Source: Dyella sp. ASV24 (GTDB taxonomy: Bacteria; Pseudomonadota; Gammaproteobacteria; Xanthomonadales; Rhodanobacteraceae). From it: DNA of 43,027 nucleotides. Shown here in pieces: positions 2,446-43,027 of the stretch. A program made the translations under genes and the position numbers. The notes under the pieces are model-generated. The model was not told the DNA's origin, did not search any database, and saw only the letters and a list, made by a program, of their open reading frames with translations. The DNA lies in assembly GCF_016428905.1 (NCBI RefSeq), contig NZ_JAELTQ010000026.1, forward strand, positions 1 to 43,027. Direction: 5' to 3'. Numbering within the stretch: the first letter of the stretch is position 1; each line of letters starts with the position of its first letter.

Positions 2446-2540
2446 GCCCTGCCCTAGCCGACGGGCTACACCGGTCGGCCTGCTGCCTCGCTCGATGATT
2501 CGCGCTAGTCTGGCCGCGCCTGACGCTTGATGGGTGTAAG

Positions 2541-2810
2541 GGGTGCTCTGATCTATTCAACGCGGGTGGCATGATGTCCAGAAAGCCCGCAAGGTGCAGG
2601 GCGTGACGCAGCCCAGGCTGGTTGCCTGGGCAAGTGGCGCACTGCGGCATGGGGGCTTTCTGGACATCACCCGCAGGGCCGGTTCTGTTTGCCTGCCGCT
2701 GCGCGCCGCGCTGTCTCAACAGGCCACCAGCCTGCCTTCACCAACGCGGCGCGCAGCGGCAGGCAAACAGAACCGGTGACACCCACGTTGAATAGATCAG
2801 AGCATCCCTA
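2541..2810. repeat. Composite structured repeat: two inverted copies of a leader-plus-hairpin element
   Basis: The outer ends are inverted copies of one leader. The left copy reads GGGTGCTCTGATCTATTC (2541-2558) and the right copy is its complement at about 2792-2810 (GAATAGATCAGAGCATCCC); similarity continues inward for about ten bases. Inside are two separate stems. One is a perfect 16-bp pair, 2573-2588 with 2653-2668. The other is a perfect 32-bp pair, 2679-2710 with 2745-2776. Each encloses a small hairpin of the form CAGGC-TGGNN-GCCTG: 2612-2630 on plus, and 2720-2734 on minus. The same architecture recurs at 42725-42856. The element ends 9 bases before the start codon of the hybrid kinase, leaving only AGGGG as its ribosome binding site. 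Confidence 0.9.
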
Positions 2811-2819
2811 GGGGATCCA

Positions 2820-4718
2820 ATGGGTACAGGGGCCAATTCCCGGACAGTGCAATGGTGGCGTCGCACCTCGCTGATGCAGCGGCTTGCGTTGGTCGCCCTT
2901 GTACCCACTCTGGTAACGGCAACCCTGTTGGTCGCGATGCTCGCGCCGCAGCAGTTGATGACCCTTCGCGGCATGGCGCAAAACACCGCCGATGCCATCG
3001 CGACCCAGGCGGCTTCCGTCACCGCCGCGCCATTGCGCGACATGCAACGCCGCGAACTCGTACGCATCGCCGAATCCATCGGTGACCTGCCTCACGTCGC
3101 CCGCGTGCAGATCCGCGCCGCCGACGGCGAGATCCTGGCCGACAGCCTGGGACGCAGCGGCGCCGACAACAGCGAAAGCCTGACCGTGGTGCGCGACGTG
3201 GTCGACACGGATCGCCCGGGCCAACCCGTGCTGGGCTCGGTCGTCGTTGACGTCAGCCTGCGCGACGCCATCGCCATGCAACAGGCCAGCCTGCGACACG
3301 CCATGGTGGCGCTGGTGATCAGCCTGCTCCTGGCGGCGATCATCGCGTGGCAGGCCGCGCGCTGGATCAGCGCGCCGCTACGTCGGCTCGTACACGCCGT
3401 GCACCAGCTCGGCCGCGGCGACCGCCACGTCGAAGTGGAGGTCACGGACCTCACCGAGATTGGCGAACTGCAGCGGGGCTTCAACAGCGCGGCGATGGCC
3501 TTGTTCGACGTGCAGCGCGGCATGGAGCGCGAGATCGAACATGCCACCGTCGAACTGGCACGCAAGAATGCCGCGCTCGAGGCCGCCAGCGTTGCCAAAG
3601 CGCGTTTTCTCGCTGCCGCATCGCACGACCTTCGCCAACCACTTTATGCGTTGACGCTGTTCTCCTCGGCGTTGGCCGAGGATGAGCGCGACCCGATACG
3701 CCTGGATCGCATCGCACACATCCAGGAATGTGTGGAAGCGCTGGATCACCTGTTCAGCGAATTGCTCGACCTGTCGCGCCTGGAAACCGGCGCCATGCAG
3801 ATCGAGATCGCCGAGTTCCCGCTGGATCACGTCTTCCAGGAAGTAAGCCGCAATTTCCGCATGATCGCGGAACAGCATGGCCTGCGCCTGATCATGCGCA
3901 CCACCGACCTATGGGTGCGCAGTGACCGCACGATGCTCTCGCGCATCCTCAACAATCTGGTCAGCAACGCCTTGCGCTATACCAACCGCGGCGGCGTGCT
4001 GGTGGTAGCACGCCGTCGTGACGACGGCACCGTACGCGTGGACGTATGGGACACCGGCACCGGTATTGCACCGGAGCACCAGGCACGCGTGTTCGACGAG
4101 TTCTACCGCGTGGAATGCCACGGCAACGAACACGATGCCAGCCGGCGCCGCGGCCTGGGCCTGGGCCTGGCCACCGTACAACGCTTGGCCGAACTGCTCG
4201 ACACGCGGGTGCAGCTGAAGTCGAAAACCGGGCATGGCAGCGTGTTCAGTTTTCATCTACCCGAAATTCCGGCGCAGCAGATCGTGGCGGCTACTGGCAC
4301 CCCATCGTCACCCGATGTCTCCGGCATGCGCGTGCTGGTGATCGACGACGAACCGGCCATCCTTTCCGGCATCCGCTATCTGCTCGCCAGTTGGGGATGC
4401 AAAGTGGCGGTGGCGGAAGATCGCATACAGGCGCTGCAGGCAGCGGAAGAATGGAGTGAGCCGCCGGATATCGTGATTTCCGACTTGCGCCTGCGTGACG
4501 GCGAAAGCGGTCTTGATGTGCTCGCCGCCCTGGATGCGCATTACCAGATCGATGGCAATCCACCCTTCCCGCGCCTGCTCATCACCGGCGAAACCCGTAG
4601 CGACCGGCTACGCGAGATCATGGCCGCACGCATTCCCGTGCTTTACAAGCCCGTGTCGCCAGAACAGTTGCGCGAAGCGCTGATGGATGCCTGGAGTGGA
4701 TCACGCGCCACGGCCTGA
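2820..4718 (+). CDS. Hybrid sensor histidine kinase with C-terminal receiver domain
   Basis: A 632-residue inner-membrane hybrid kinase. In order: TM1 (about 20-42), a periplasmic sensor region (43-160), TM2 (161-180), HAMP (180-232) and a coiled coil (235-260). HisKA follows with the H-box ASHDLRQPL (phospho-acceptor His269). The HATPase domain has its N-box at NNLVSNALRYT (378-388), G1 DTGTG (411-415) and G2 GLGLGL (445-450). The receiver (504-625) has acidic pocket DDE (509-511), acceptor Asp555 and Lys610. All catalytic residues are present, so it should autophosphorylate and pass phosphate to its own receiver. The periplasmic loop is of a size that could contact a soluble binding protein, and one is encoded at 7807. 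The ATG at 2820 has AGGGG upstream. The 3' end is 5 bases from the convergent gene. Confidence 0.92.
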   Translation: MGTGANSRTVQWWRRTSLMQRLALVALVPTLVTATLLVAMLAPQQLMTLRGMAQNTADAIATQAASVTAAPLRDMQRRELVRIAESIGDLPHVARVQIRAADGEILADSLGRSGADNSESLTVVRDVVDTDRPGQPVLGSVVVDVSLRDAIAMQQASLRHAMVALVISLLLAAIIAWQAARWISAPLRRLVHAVHQLGRGDRHVEVEVTDLTEIGELQRGFNSAAMALFDVQRGMEREIEHATVELARKNAALEAASVAKARFLAAASHDLRQPLYALTLFSSALAEDERDPIRLDRIAHIQECVEALDHLFSELLDLSRLETGAMQIEIAEFPLDHVFQEVSRNFRMIAEQHGLRLIMRTTDLWVRSDRTMLSRILNNLVSNALRYTNRGGVLVVARRRDDGTVRVDVWDTGTGIAPEHQARVFDEFYRVECHGNEHDASRRRGLGLGLATVQRLAELLDTRVQLKSKTGHGSVFSFHLPEIPAQQIVAATGTPSSPDVSGMRVLVIDDEPAILSGIRYLLASWGCKVAVAEDRIQALQAAEEWSEPPDIVISDLRLRDGESGLDVLAALDAHYQIDGNPPFPRLLITGETRSDRLREIMAARIPVLYKPVSPEQLREALMDAWSGSRATA

Positions 4719-7775: not shown

Positions 7776-7794
7776 GGGATGCTCTGATCTATTC
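7776..7794 (+). repeat. Solo copy of the 19-base repeat leader
   Basis: GGGATGCTCTGATCTATTC, identical to the leader of the structured repeats at 2541-2810 (minus copy) and matching the 42725 copy up to its last base. Here no hairpin arms follow. It sits in the 81-base gap between the regulator and the PhnD-like gene, ending 12 bases before the latter's GTG. Confidence 0.8.
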
Positions 7795-7806: not shown

Positions 7807-8868
7807 GTGCCGCAGGAAAGGATCGCAAGCTATCGCAAAAACGCCCGCCGGGTGGGCTTGGCCTGCGCACGGTTGACCGTGCTGTTCCTGCTAACCCTGC
7901 TTGGCGGTGCGGCCGCCAGCGCCGATCCGGCGCAAGCCACCGGGCACATCAACGCACTGACCTTTGGCATCCTGCCCATCGGCGGCCCCTCCGAGTCGCT
8001 GGCCGCCTGGCGGCCGATGCTCGACGACCTCAGCCACACGCTGCATCTACCCATCCGCAGCCTGTCGGTAAGCACGTATGAAGGACTGGGCGAGGCCATG
8101 GCCGAGGAGCGCGTGGACTTCGCCTTCGTCTCCGGGCGATTGGCGTTGGATGCGGTGATCCACGATCGCATGCAGGTCATCGGCCAGCTCACGCGCAGCA
8201 ACGGTTCGCGCGGCTACTACTCGGTGCTGCTCGTACCCCGGGAATCGCCCCTGCACAGTCTGGACGATCTCTTCAAGCAGCCGGGCAAGCTGCGCTATGC
8301 ACGCGGCGAGGTGTTGTCAGTCTCCGGCTATCTGGTCCCCGAAACTCAGGTATTCGCCAATCGCCGGCTGGATTCGGACACTTTCTTCGCCAACGTCACC
8401 GTCGACAATCACCAGAACAATGCACTCGCCGTCGCCAATAACGAGGCCGATGTCGCCACCAACAACACCGCTGACCTCGAGCGATTTGCGGAACGGTTTC
8501 CCGACCAGTACGCGCGCCTGCGCGTGCTATGGACGTCCAGCCTGATTCCCCATGCCGTGGTGGTGATCCGTACGGACCTTCCCGCCGACCTTCGCCAGCG
8601 TGTCGCCGCGGCGCTTACCTCGTACGCCAAGGGCAAGAACGCACAGGCCGAGTTGGCAAAGCTGCATCTTATCCACGATATCAGCGGCTTCGCGCCCGCT
8701 GGCAACGAGACACTGGTGCCTTTCGCCGATATCGAGTTCAACCTGGACCGGCGGCGCGCCTATAGCGCGCAATGGGTAAGCGACGCCGCCATGCAGGCTC
8801 GCCTCAAGAAGATCGATGCCGAGCATGAGGCGCTGGTGCGCCAGTTGATGGCGCCCAGCTCTCCGTAA
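7807..8868 (+). CDS. PhnD-like periplasmic substrate-binding protein (phosphate/phosphite/phosphonate family)
   Basis: A 353-residue type 2 periplasmic binding protein of the PhnD family. A hydrophobic signal sequence (about 22-39, FLLTLLGGAAASA) precedes the mature domain, which opens with LTFGILPIGGPSESLAAWRPML, the usual beta-1/helix-1 of the fold (written in two parts: LTFGILPIGG then PSESLAAWRPML). The hinge and second-lobe strands DFAFVSGRLA, YYSVLLVPRESPL and LRYARGEVLSVSGY follow. No permease or ATPase gene is nearby; the neighbours are a response regulator and histidine kinases. It may therefore deliver a ligand signal to a kinase sensor domain rather than feed a transporter. Start choice is uncertain: GTG at 7807, or TTG at 7858, which would give a more typical 22-residue signal peptide. 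The ligand cannot be predicted. Confidence 0.82.
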   Translation: MPQERIASYRKNARRVGLACARLTVLFLLTLLGGAAASADPAQATGHINALTFGILPIGGPSESLAAWRPMLDDLSHTLHLPIRSLSVSTYEGLGEAMAEERVDFAFVSGRLALDAVIHDRMQVIGQLTRSNGSRGYYSVLLVPRESPLHSLDDLFKQPGKLRYARGEVLSVSGYLVPETQVFANRRLDSDTFFANVTVDNHQNNALAVANNEADVATNNTADLERFAERFPDQYARLRVLWTSSLIPHAVVVIRTDLPADLRQRVAAALTSYAKGKNAQAELAKLHLIHDISGFAPAGNETLVPFADIEFNLDRRRAYSAQWVSDAAMQARLKKIDAEHEALVRQLMAPSSP

Positions 8869-8882
8869 TCGCTGCAAGCCTT

Positions 8883-9240
8883 AGAGCCTGTTTACGGCCT
8901 CCCCGTGGCCCGCGCCGGAGGCTGTTTACGCGCAGGACAAGGAAGAGCGAAGGCACGCGGGGAGTGGCCATGGATGGCCACGGTTTTGAGGAGCGAGGAG
9001 TGTACGTCCGTACACGACTGAGTGATGACGCAGGCCTGTGGGCAAACAGACCCGGCCCGCACGCGGGGAGGCGCCATGGATGGCGCCGGCTCTGAGGAGC
9101 GAGGAAGGGTTGTTCTTGAGTGGCCACCCAACGACAGCACGCGGCTTGACCTGCCCACCAGGCAGGCGCAGCGCCACGCGCCGCCATCGGGCGACCACTC
9201 AAGAACAACGCGGGCTACGGGGAGACCGTAAACAGCCTCT
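8883..9240. repeat. Composite palindromic repeat between convergent genes
   Basis: This fills the gap between the stop of the PhnD-like gene and the stop of the DUF3617 gene. The outer arms are 8883-8914 and 9209-9240, 32 bases with three mismatches (core GCTGTTTACGG...CTCCCCGT). Inside are two direct repeats of about 47 bases (8953-9000 and 9059-9105). Each starts GCACGCGGGGAG, ends GAGGAGCGAGGA, and holds a hairpin around CATGGATG: GTGGCCAT-GG-ATGGCCAC (8964-8981) and GGCGCCAT-GG-ATGGCGCC (9070-9087). The arms differ between the copies but stay complementary. A further 15-bp stem pairs 9109-9123 with 9195-9209, and GTGTAC/GTACAC forms a hairpin at 9000-9015. The right end coincides with the TAA of the DUF3617 gene. 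Confidence 0.88.
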
Positions 9241-40105: not shown

Positions 40106-42688
<2,583 letters not shown>

Positions 42689-42724: not shown

Positions 42725-42856
42725 GGGATGCTCTGATCTATTGCACAAGGGCGTCACCGGTTCTGTGTGGCCGCAGATGGGTGTTGCGGTGATGAAGGCA
42801 GACTGGACGTCTGTCGAATCACCGCGACGCACAGCTGCGGCCACACAGAATCGGCC
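42725..42856 (+). repeat. Third copy of the structured repeat, at the contig break
   Basis: The leader GGGATGCTCTGATCTATT (42725-42742) is followed by three nested stems. The outer stem pairs 42757-42776 with 42835-42854 (20 bp, one G-T type mismatch). The middle stem pairs GCGGTGAT (42786-42793) with ATCACCGC (42818-42825). The inner hairpin is CAGAC-TGGAC-GTCTG (42799-42813). The order and the GAAGGCAG(A/G)CTGG loop match the right half of the 2541-2810 composite, while the stem bases differ. The tail GGCCCTG runs into adapter sequence. Confidence 0.88.

Positions 42857-43027
<171 letters not shown>

Follow-up and report, generated by a model that had tools for sequence, protein, structure and literature searches.

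A two-armed IS5-group MITE in Dyella with hairpins of opposite strand polarity

The window analysed here, 43,027 nucleotides of Dyella sp. ASV24, carries close to its start, and again near its end, a structured repeat made of a leader, an outer stem and a small hairpin. The question raised by this locus is whether such a repeat is a folded molecule kept by selection on its structure, a mobile element, or both. The first-pass annotation had described two inverted copies sharing a leader at 2541 to 2810, and a third copy starting at 42725.

The leader was found at 2540-2558 (plus strand, one mismatch), 2790-2808 (minus strand, exact) and 42725-42743 (plus strand, one mismatch), and a fourth, exact leader at 7776-7794 (plus strand) is followed by no arm. 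These four matches with up to three mismatches compare with an average of 0.02 in shuffled sequence, and outer stems and CAGRC-TGGNN-GYCTG tips are present in the window copies. Leader, outer stems and tips are therefore real, but the leaders at positions 2540 and 2790 bound one and the same element, and the supposed inverted copies are the two halves of a single 267-bp unit at 2541-2807. Contig C5 of the same genome carries a second full-length copy, 93% identical, in reverse orientation and with the same parts; this copy and homologues of 265-269 bp rule out two separate inverted repeats. The parts of this type-1 element follow the order TIR, arm B, linker, arm A, TIR:

2537..2540, no strand: left flank TAAG, presumed to be a decayed target duplication (CAAG in the nearest empty sites)
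2541..2807, minus strand (the A-first strand): full-length type-1 MITE of 267 bp, from the TIR pair, equal-length Dyella homologues and empty sites
2541..2570, plus strand: left TIR and closing stem P1 on the arm B side, from leader matches and consensus stems
2571..2669, plus strand as its putative functional reading: arm B hairpin, from covariance-model score, polarity and fold energies
2670..2678, no strand: linker hairpin CCCGCAGGG, from sequence and consensus structure
2679..2776, minus strand as its putative functional reading: arm A hairpin with tip CAGGC-TGGTG-GCCTG, from polarity and fold energies
2777..2807, minus strand: right TIR and closing stem P1 on the arm A side, from leader match and consensus stems
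2808..2811, no strand: right flank CTAG, which differs from the left flank, so that a clean duplication is absent at the window copy
2820..4718, plus strand: hybrid histidine kinase gene (Pfam HAMP, HisKA, HATPase_c, Response_reg)
7776..7794, plus strand: solo leader or TIR without arms; genomes G002 and G003 have a TIR at the equivalent position as well
42725..42856, plus strand: partial type-1 MITE with TIR and arm A, from leader and arm matches, cut by the contig end
42857..43027, no strand: adapter-like sequence followed mostly by poly-G, probably not genomic

The partial copy stops near 42857; from there on the contig consists of CTGTCTCTTATACACATCT, which we take to be the Nextera mosaic-end adapter, and then of poly-G. 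Contigs C13, C15, C312 and C75 of the same assembly end in the same manner, and the missing end of this copy is most likely an assembly artefact. The partial MITE precedes a clpB-like gene (40106-42688, minus strand) by some 37 bases, and its arms may sit in the leader of this heat-shock gene. The solo 19-base TIR directly precedes a phosphonate-binding-protein gene (7807-8868).

A search of relatives for the leader, proposed in the first-pass annotation, recovered the TIR core in 21 of 61 genomes with one mismatch allowed, and revealed insertion sequences, 1.15-1.2 kb long, of which one end carries this TIR and the opposite end a variant. One of them (L091, genome G035) is a 1,194-bp TIR pair whose frame, with DUF772 and DDE_Tnp_1 domains, is broken by a stop; the other (L101, genome G012) is a 1,151-bp pair around an open frame of 417 amino acids, and the two transposases are 67% identical over the matched stretch. 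No transposase gene lies inside the window element, whose 267 bp of nested hairpins are too short for one. The element is a non-autonomous IS5-group MITE and the leader is its TIR. The first-pass annotation had preferred selection on structure to a decayed transposon, and had named a leader that proves to be the end of an insertion sequence or MITE as evidence against its own reading; with the TIR carried by L091 and L101, the words "rather than" have to be given up. The type-1 family is nevertheless not simply decayed, since length and architecture are retained between species, some copies being partial. TIR, YTAR target and the DUF772 and DDE_Tnp_1 transposase of the full-length insertion sequences that share the TIR are all those of IS5-group elements; unlike in other IS5-group MITEs, the interior consists of structured arms common to different TIR tips and is not a recognisably deleted transposase gene.

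Target duplications gave the same picture. The loci collected yielded 87 TIR pairs of 49-329 bp with at most four mismatches per end. An exact 4-bp duplication flanks 39 of the 87, whereas shuffled partners gave 15.7 on average and never more than 24, and its sequence is YTAR in 38 of these 39. Duplication of YTAR or TNA targets is the rule for IS5 subgroups. The window copy, with flanks TAAG and CTAG, is outside the 39. TIRs and YTAR duplications point to a DDE transposase, which probably moved the element, and not to the Y1/RAYT enzyme suggested in the first-pass annotation. The type-1 transposase used as a query matched 4 of 37 genomes at 1e-60; at E 0.001 it found no homologue in the window genome, where DDE_Tnp_1 also had no match (9 of 14 control genomes were positive). 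With 635 contigs this assembly is still a draft, from which an insertion sequence present in several copies could have dropped out.

Empty sites complete the evidence for insertion. At the window site the element is present in the window genome (G000) and in G002, and absent from 18 of 20 Dyella genomes, in which the 500 bases ahead of the hybrid histidine kinase gene were checked. The target in the nearest empty sites is GTGCAAGGGGATCC, which contains AAGGGG just ahead of the start of this gene. The MITE now ends 12 bases ahead of the start codon, at this ancestral AAGGGG, which we presume to be the Shine-Dalgarno. One of the 18 genomes, G003, has a possible TIR remnant mismatched at 5 of 18 positions about 100 bases upstream of the target; this locus (L263) may hold a decayed TIR and the start of an arm A (GGATGCTCGCAACCATTTCACGCAGGCGTCACCGG), near the window insertion site and not at it.

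Twelve TIR pairs, of 49-79 bp, have no arms. Five of the twelve carry an exact duplication, which suggests that arms are not strictly required for movement (they may have been lost once inserted) and that their structure matters at a later stage, once the element is in place, or for tolerance by the host.

Is the structure of the arms then constrained? An alignment of 21 Dyella copies of 265-268 bp (A2) gave a consensus of three long stems with 114 pairs. Two-sided changes occur at 56 of the 114, compared with 22.6 after shuffling and 9-14 when the register was slid, and none of 500 shuffles reached 56; paired cells amount to 95.9%, compared with 88.1% in shuffles and 35-41% in slid registers. 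An alternative consensus gave 55 of 107 pairs with two-sided changes. The paired changes that had first been noticed contrasted stems of arm B with stems of arm A, and the comparison does not hold as drawn; homologous arms do covary, as these counts reveal. P1, the TIR stem, covaries too (18 of 30 pairs), and apical loops and the bases that flank them are conserved where stems are variable. Between the window copy and its orthologue in G002, the only orthologous pair, ten columns differ and none is a two-sided change; at several of the ten, pairing is lost in one copy or in both. As a test of selection acting after insertion, this single pair is weak. The covariation figures alone fall short of proving selection, because the structure was derived from the same alignment and related sequences, with kinship incompletely removed, can exceed shuffles. 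Counts on an alignment of 43 sequences (A1) and on A3 were left out, since at arm A the registers of the two clades are shifted by one base. The 22 sequences outside A2 contributed 14 copies retained as a second clade, and the clades were counted separately.

A more discriminating signal comes from the strand on which mismatches can be read as wobbles. We counted G-T against A-C mismatches on the A-first strand, over stems defined by register with unpaired columns kept, and call "own strand" of an arm its reading 5' to 3' inward from its own TIR. In the 21 Dyella copies the G-T and A-C cells number 85 and 6 in arm A, 6 and 68 in arm B, and 17 and 13 in P1; in the 14 copies of the second clade they number 11 and 4, 2 and 39, and 9 and 6, respectively. 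Counted by columns, with apices included and each column taken once per clade, 59 lean towards G-U on the own strand and 9 towards A-C (p 4e-10), compared with 10 and 9 in P1. The excess persists after thinning the copies at 80% identity to five and one (31 against 2 columns), and both arms of 21 of 21 Dyella copies have it; of the four arm-clade subsets, the only one not significant by itself is second-clade arm A, with 8 columns against 2 (p 0.11). Fold energies agree, since the own strand folds more stably in 98 of 98 arms (49 elements, three sets), compared with 10 of 21 for P1, for which the 21 Dyella copies alone were used and the median difference is 0.0. The two arms of one element thus have their polarity on opposite strands, which neither a bias of replication direction nor a single through-transcript explains. 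Wobble polarity and fold energies fit selection on a single-stranded, RNA-like form, and together with covariation they make the structure look constrained, as had been proposed from the window alone.

A covariance model, also suggested in the first-pass annotation, was built for arm B from 39 training sequences, which it matches by construction. It scores arm B of the window at 99.1 bits on the plus strand and 63.1 on the minus strand, the window copy being part of the training set. The model also responds to these arms when they are read on the opposite strand (33-76 bits), so that match counts are not copy numbers. At E 1e-6 it matches 75 of 147 sampled genomes of the family Rhodanobacteraceae (among them the window genome and part of the training genomes), distributed over 20 of 26 genera, and 67 of the 75 outscore the best match from other families. 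Matches in the class sample were weak and limited to 5 of 184 other genomes, all of other families, with a best score of 59.8 bits; we read these five as chance or unrelated hairpins.

In the window genome the model has 28 matches at E 1e-4, either strand and both arms being counted. Nineteen loci outside the first family were noted, and 17 were analysed after leaving out L312 (contig end, adapter-like) and L327 (43.6 bits). One of them, L320, lies in the window:

8883..9240, minus strand: type-2 element with the shared architecture, TIR tip GAGCCTG/GAGGCTG and a TTA duplication on the plus strand
9110..9209, minus strand: type-2 arm B with a different outer stem and the same kind of apical core (model score 64 bits)

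The fold z-score of 9080-9240 is -9.0 on the minus strand. All 17 loci are enclosed by an inverted repeat of their own, with 19-24 of the 24 outermost positions paired, and the tip is GAGCCTG or a near variant in 16 of them, L302 being the exception. Fourteen measure 265-271 bp, L302 286, L311 167 and L320 358, the last being lengthened by two nested hairpin inserts. The window type-1 copy aligns with 10 of the 17 (BLAST, E at most 0.01), for the most part in register and at best with E 1e-14. P1 past the tip and the outer stems vary between copies or small subgroups, and are paired within each. Polarity, counted in the 14 loci with a length of 262-272, is again opposite in the two arms: 54 G-T and 2 A-C in arm B, 0 and 7 on the same strand in arm A. 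The type-2 P1 gave 5 against 15 (p 0.04), 9 of the 15 coming from one position. A 3-bp TAA duplication flanks 3 of the 16 loci with a recognised tip. At the site of the window type-2 element, the other 19 of 20 Dyella genomes gave no such element within 330 bases beyond the matched flank; G019 has there a different insert of about 120 bp. Finally, L302 (L302:1345-1630, 286 bp) combines a type-1-like arm B (96.8 bits) with a third kind of end, AAGGCGACACTGAGTAAGTATCGCCGTCGT, which suggests a further TIR class.

Could the paired changes be mutational in origin? Quasipalindrome correction, in which template switching corrects mismatches between inverted repeats, would keep the arms complementary without any function, and the polarity would then stem from strand-biased mutation. 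Part of the covariation may indeed be mutational, because P1 covaries without polarity in the type-1 sets. The same process would fit three positions of one stem that are U-G in the G002 orthologue and all C-G in the window copy, as well as the multi-base two-sided changes of arm B (L065 and L017, for example). It does not, however, give the opposite polarity of the two arms, seen in three sets, from replication direction or from a single through-transcript; apical loops and flanking bases are conserved despite variable stems; and strand-biased mutation would itself require inward transcription from both ends. We consider this explanation unlikely. Inward transcription could also start within the element, from a promoter at each end, yielding two convergent small RNAs. 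Both arms are read inward and the ends of the MITE look like that end of the insertion sequence at which the transposase starts, as such an arrangement would have it, but a scan of 2400-2900 for promoter-like sites of the sigma-70 type found none, and in type-2 elements the 20 or so bases between tip and arm mostly differ among copies or subgroups, which makes a pair of small RNAs improbable.

The folded form might also be DNA. Single-stranded DNA hairpins are recognised by a recombinase or transposase in attC sites and REP elements, and folded single-stranded DNA would tolerate wobbles just as RNA does. Against this, TIRs and YTAR duplications indicate DDE transposition, a single-stranded intermediate presents one strand and not opposite strands for the two arms, and the exact duplications at armless pairs, subject to arm loss after insertion, speak for movement without arms; arms serving as single-stranded substrates appear very unlikely. 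Simpler identities were rejected as well. An intrinsic terminator is ruled out by a scan of 2400-2900 in which no terminator-like site was found, and known Rfam RNAs gave sub-threshold matches only, mostly to microRNA models that score long hairpins. Sixty of the 87 elements could be classed by neighbouring genes with a crude gene caller, 42 being in tandem, 13 in divergent and 5 in convergent contexts. Insertions among these 60 show no concentration at gene ends, and with only five convergent contexts (27 of the 87 being unclassed) a 3'-end element between convergent genes was also set aside.

The reading that we prefer, with a probability of about 0.55, is that of an IS5-group MITE moved in trans, whose arms evolve as inward-read RNA hairpins acting in cis. 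We infer that RNA is the folded form, that it originates by read-in, and that the hairpin acts. A DDE transposase would recognise the TIRs and thereby move the MITE in trans. The interior would be an inverted pair of "TIR plus arm" units, each arm evolving as RNA that folds into a hairpin when read from its own TIR towards the centre, so that a host transcript entering from either side would meet a correctly read arm first. This first arm would fold into a hairpin of about 100 nt with a conserved apical core, and the hairpin may act in cis on the transcript through processing, end protection, or blocked read-through or read-in, which would make gene-adjacent insertions tolerable. Any RNA over the arms would most likely come from neighbouring genes, because the scan of 2400-2900 found no promoter-like site and the type-2 P1 is mostly unconserved. 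The strict polarity suggests that what counts is mainly the arm which a transcript encounters first, as would be expected if an arm stops, cuts or caps the transcript. On a broader and more tentative view, to which we give somewhat less than an even chance, these elements would be mobile bidirectional cis-acting RNA devices: an architecture of about 267 bp with two arms, whose apical cores are conserved and whose stems covary freely, spread through Rhodanobacteraceae on MITEs with different TIR tips. A polymerase from either side would first make an arm that folds correctly, and a host factor or nuclease would be recruited by its core.

Known bacterial repeats were compared by their architecture as given in the available parts of the cited articles. 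Correia/NEMIS elements of Neisseria measure 107 or 155 bp and have TIRs, their ends pair into a stem, and their transcripts form a stable hairpin for which RNase III processing is reported (PMC2229807, PMC10969869, PMC2649163). The window family is likewise short, TIR-bounded and hairpin-forming, and differs from them, so far as these descriptions go: it is longer, at about 267 bp, it has two arms more, its stems covary, and the arms have opposite strand polarity. The RNA model of the Caulobacter CIR, two long hairpin arms with a linker and a conserved motif exposed at the arm tip, is close in arm architecture; CIR resembles MITEs only in part, the end-to-end stem is absent and its mechanism is left open (PMC2229807), whereas the window family has TIRs, duplications and insertion sequence relatives. 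ERIC, a 127-bp MITE that can alter transcript levels when located at the 3' end of genes (PMC10969869, PMC2229807), shares the MITE nature and, in the available text, is described without a two-arm structure. Neither strand polarity nor one architecture on several TIR classes is described for CIR or Correia in the portions available of PMC2229807 and PMC10969869, and the word "compensatory" is absent from the main texts of both. A literature search on MITEs and repeats in Dyella, Xanthomonadaceae and Rhodanobacter, mostly outside subscription papers, found no paper on such repeats in these hosts or on the element.

The retained pairing of homologous arms through many two-sided changes and the opposite polarity of the arms, with the TIR stem as internal control, separate constraint at the RNA level from palindromy, and the test of G-U against A-C is transferable to other MITE families. 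In bacteria, a MITE is often regarded as a pair of TIRs with filler in between, and its hairpins as a mere consequence of palindromy. Inward-facing arms that look shaped for folding as RNA are unusual for such passenger transposons and suggest a testable role of that RNA; the hybrid histidine kinase and clpB-like genes, with arms just upstream, provide a test case for whether a transposon can bear a selected RNA function.

Other repeats are nested in these elements. Two copies of a third hairpin repeat of about 45 bp (CACGCGGGGA...CCATGGATGG...GAGGAGCGAGG) are nested in the type-2 element at 8954-8998 and 9060-9104 of the window; its stem varies between copies and pairs around a conserved CATGGATGG loop. 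Four Dyella copies elsewhere (L023, L127, L184 and L186) have similar inserts in their arm A. In five further cases (L214:4847-5036, L225:1870-2059, L215:5933-6162, L229:3705-4023 and L229:4540-4851) the tip of arm A is swapped for another hairpin (GTAGGCTGGGATG...CATCCCAGCCTAC), as if these arms were landing sites for other repeats.
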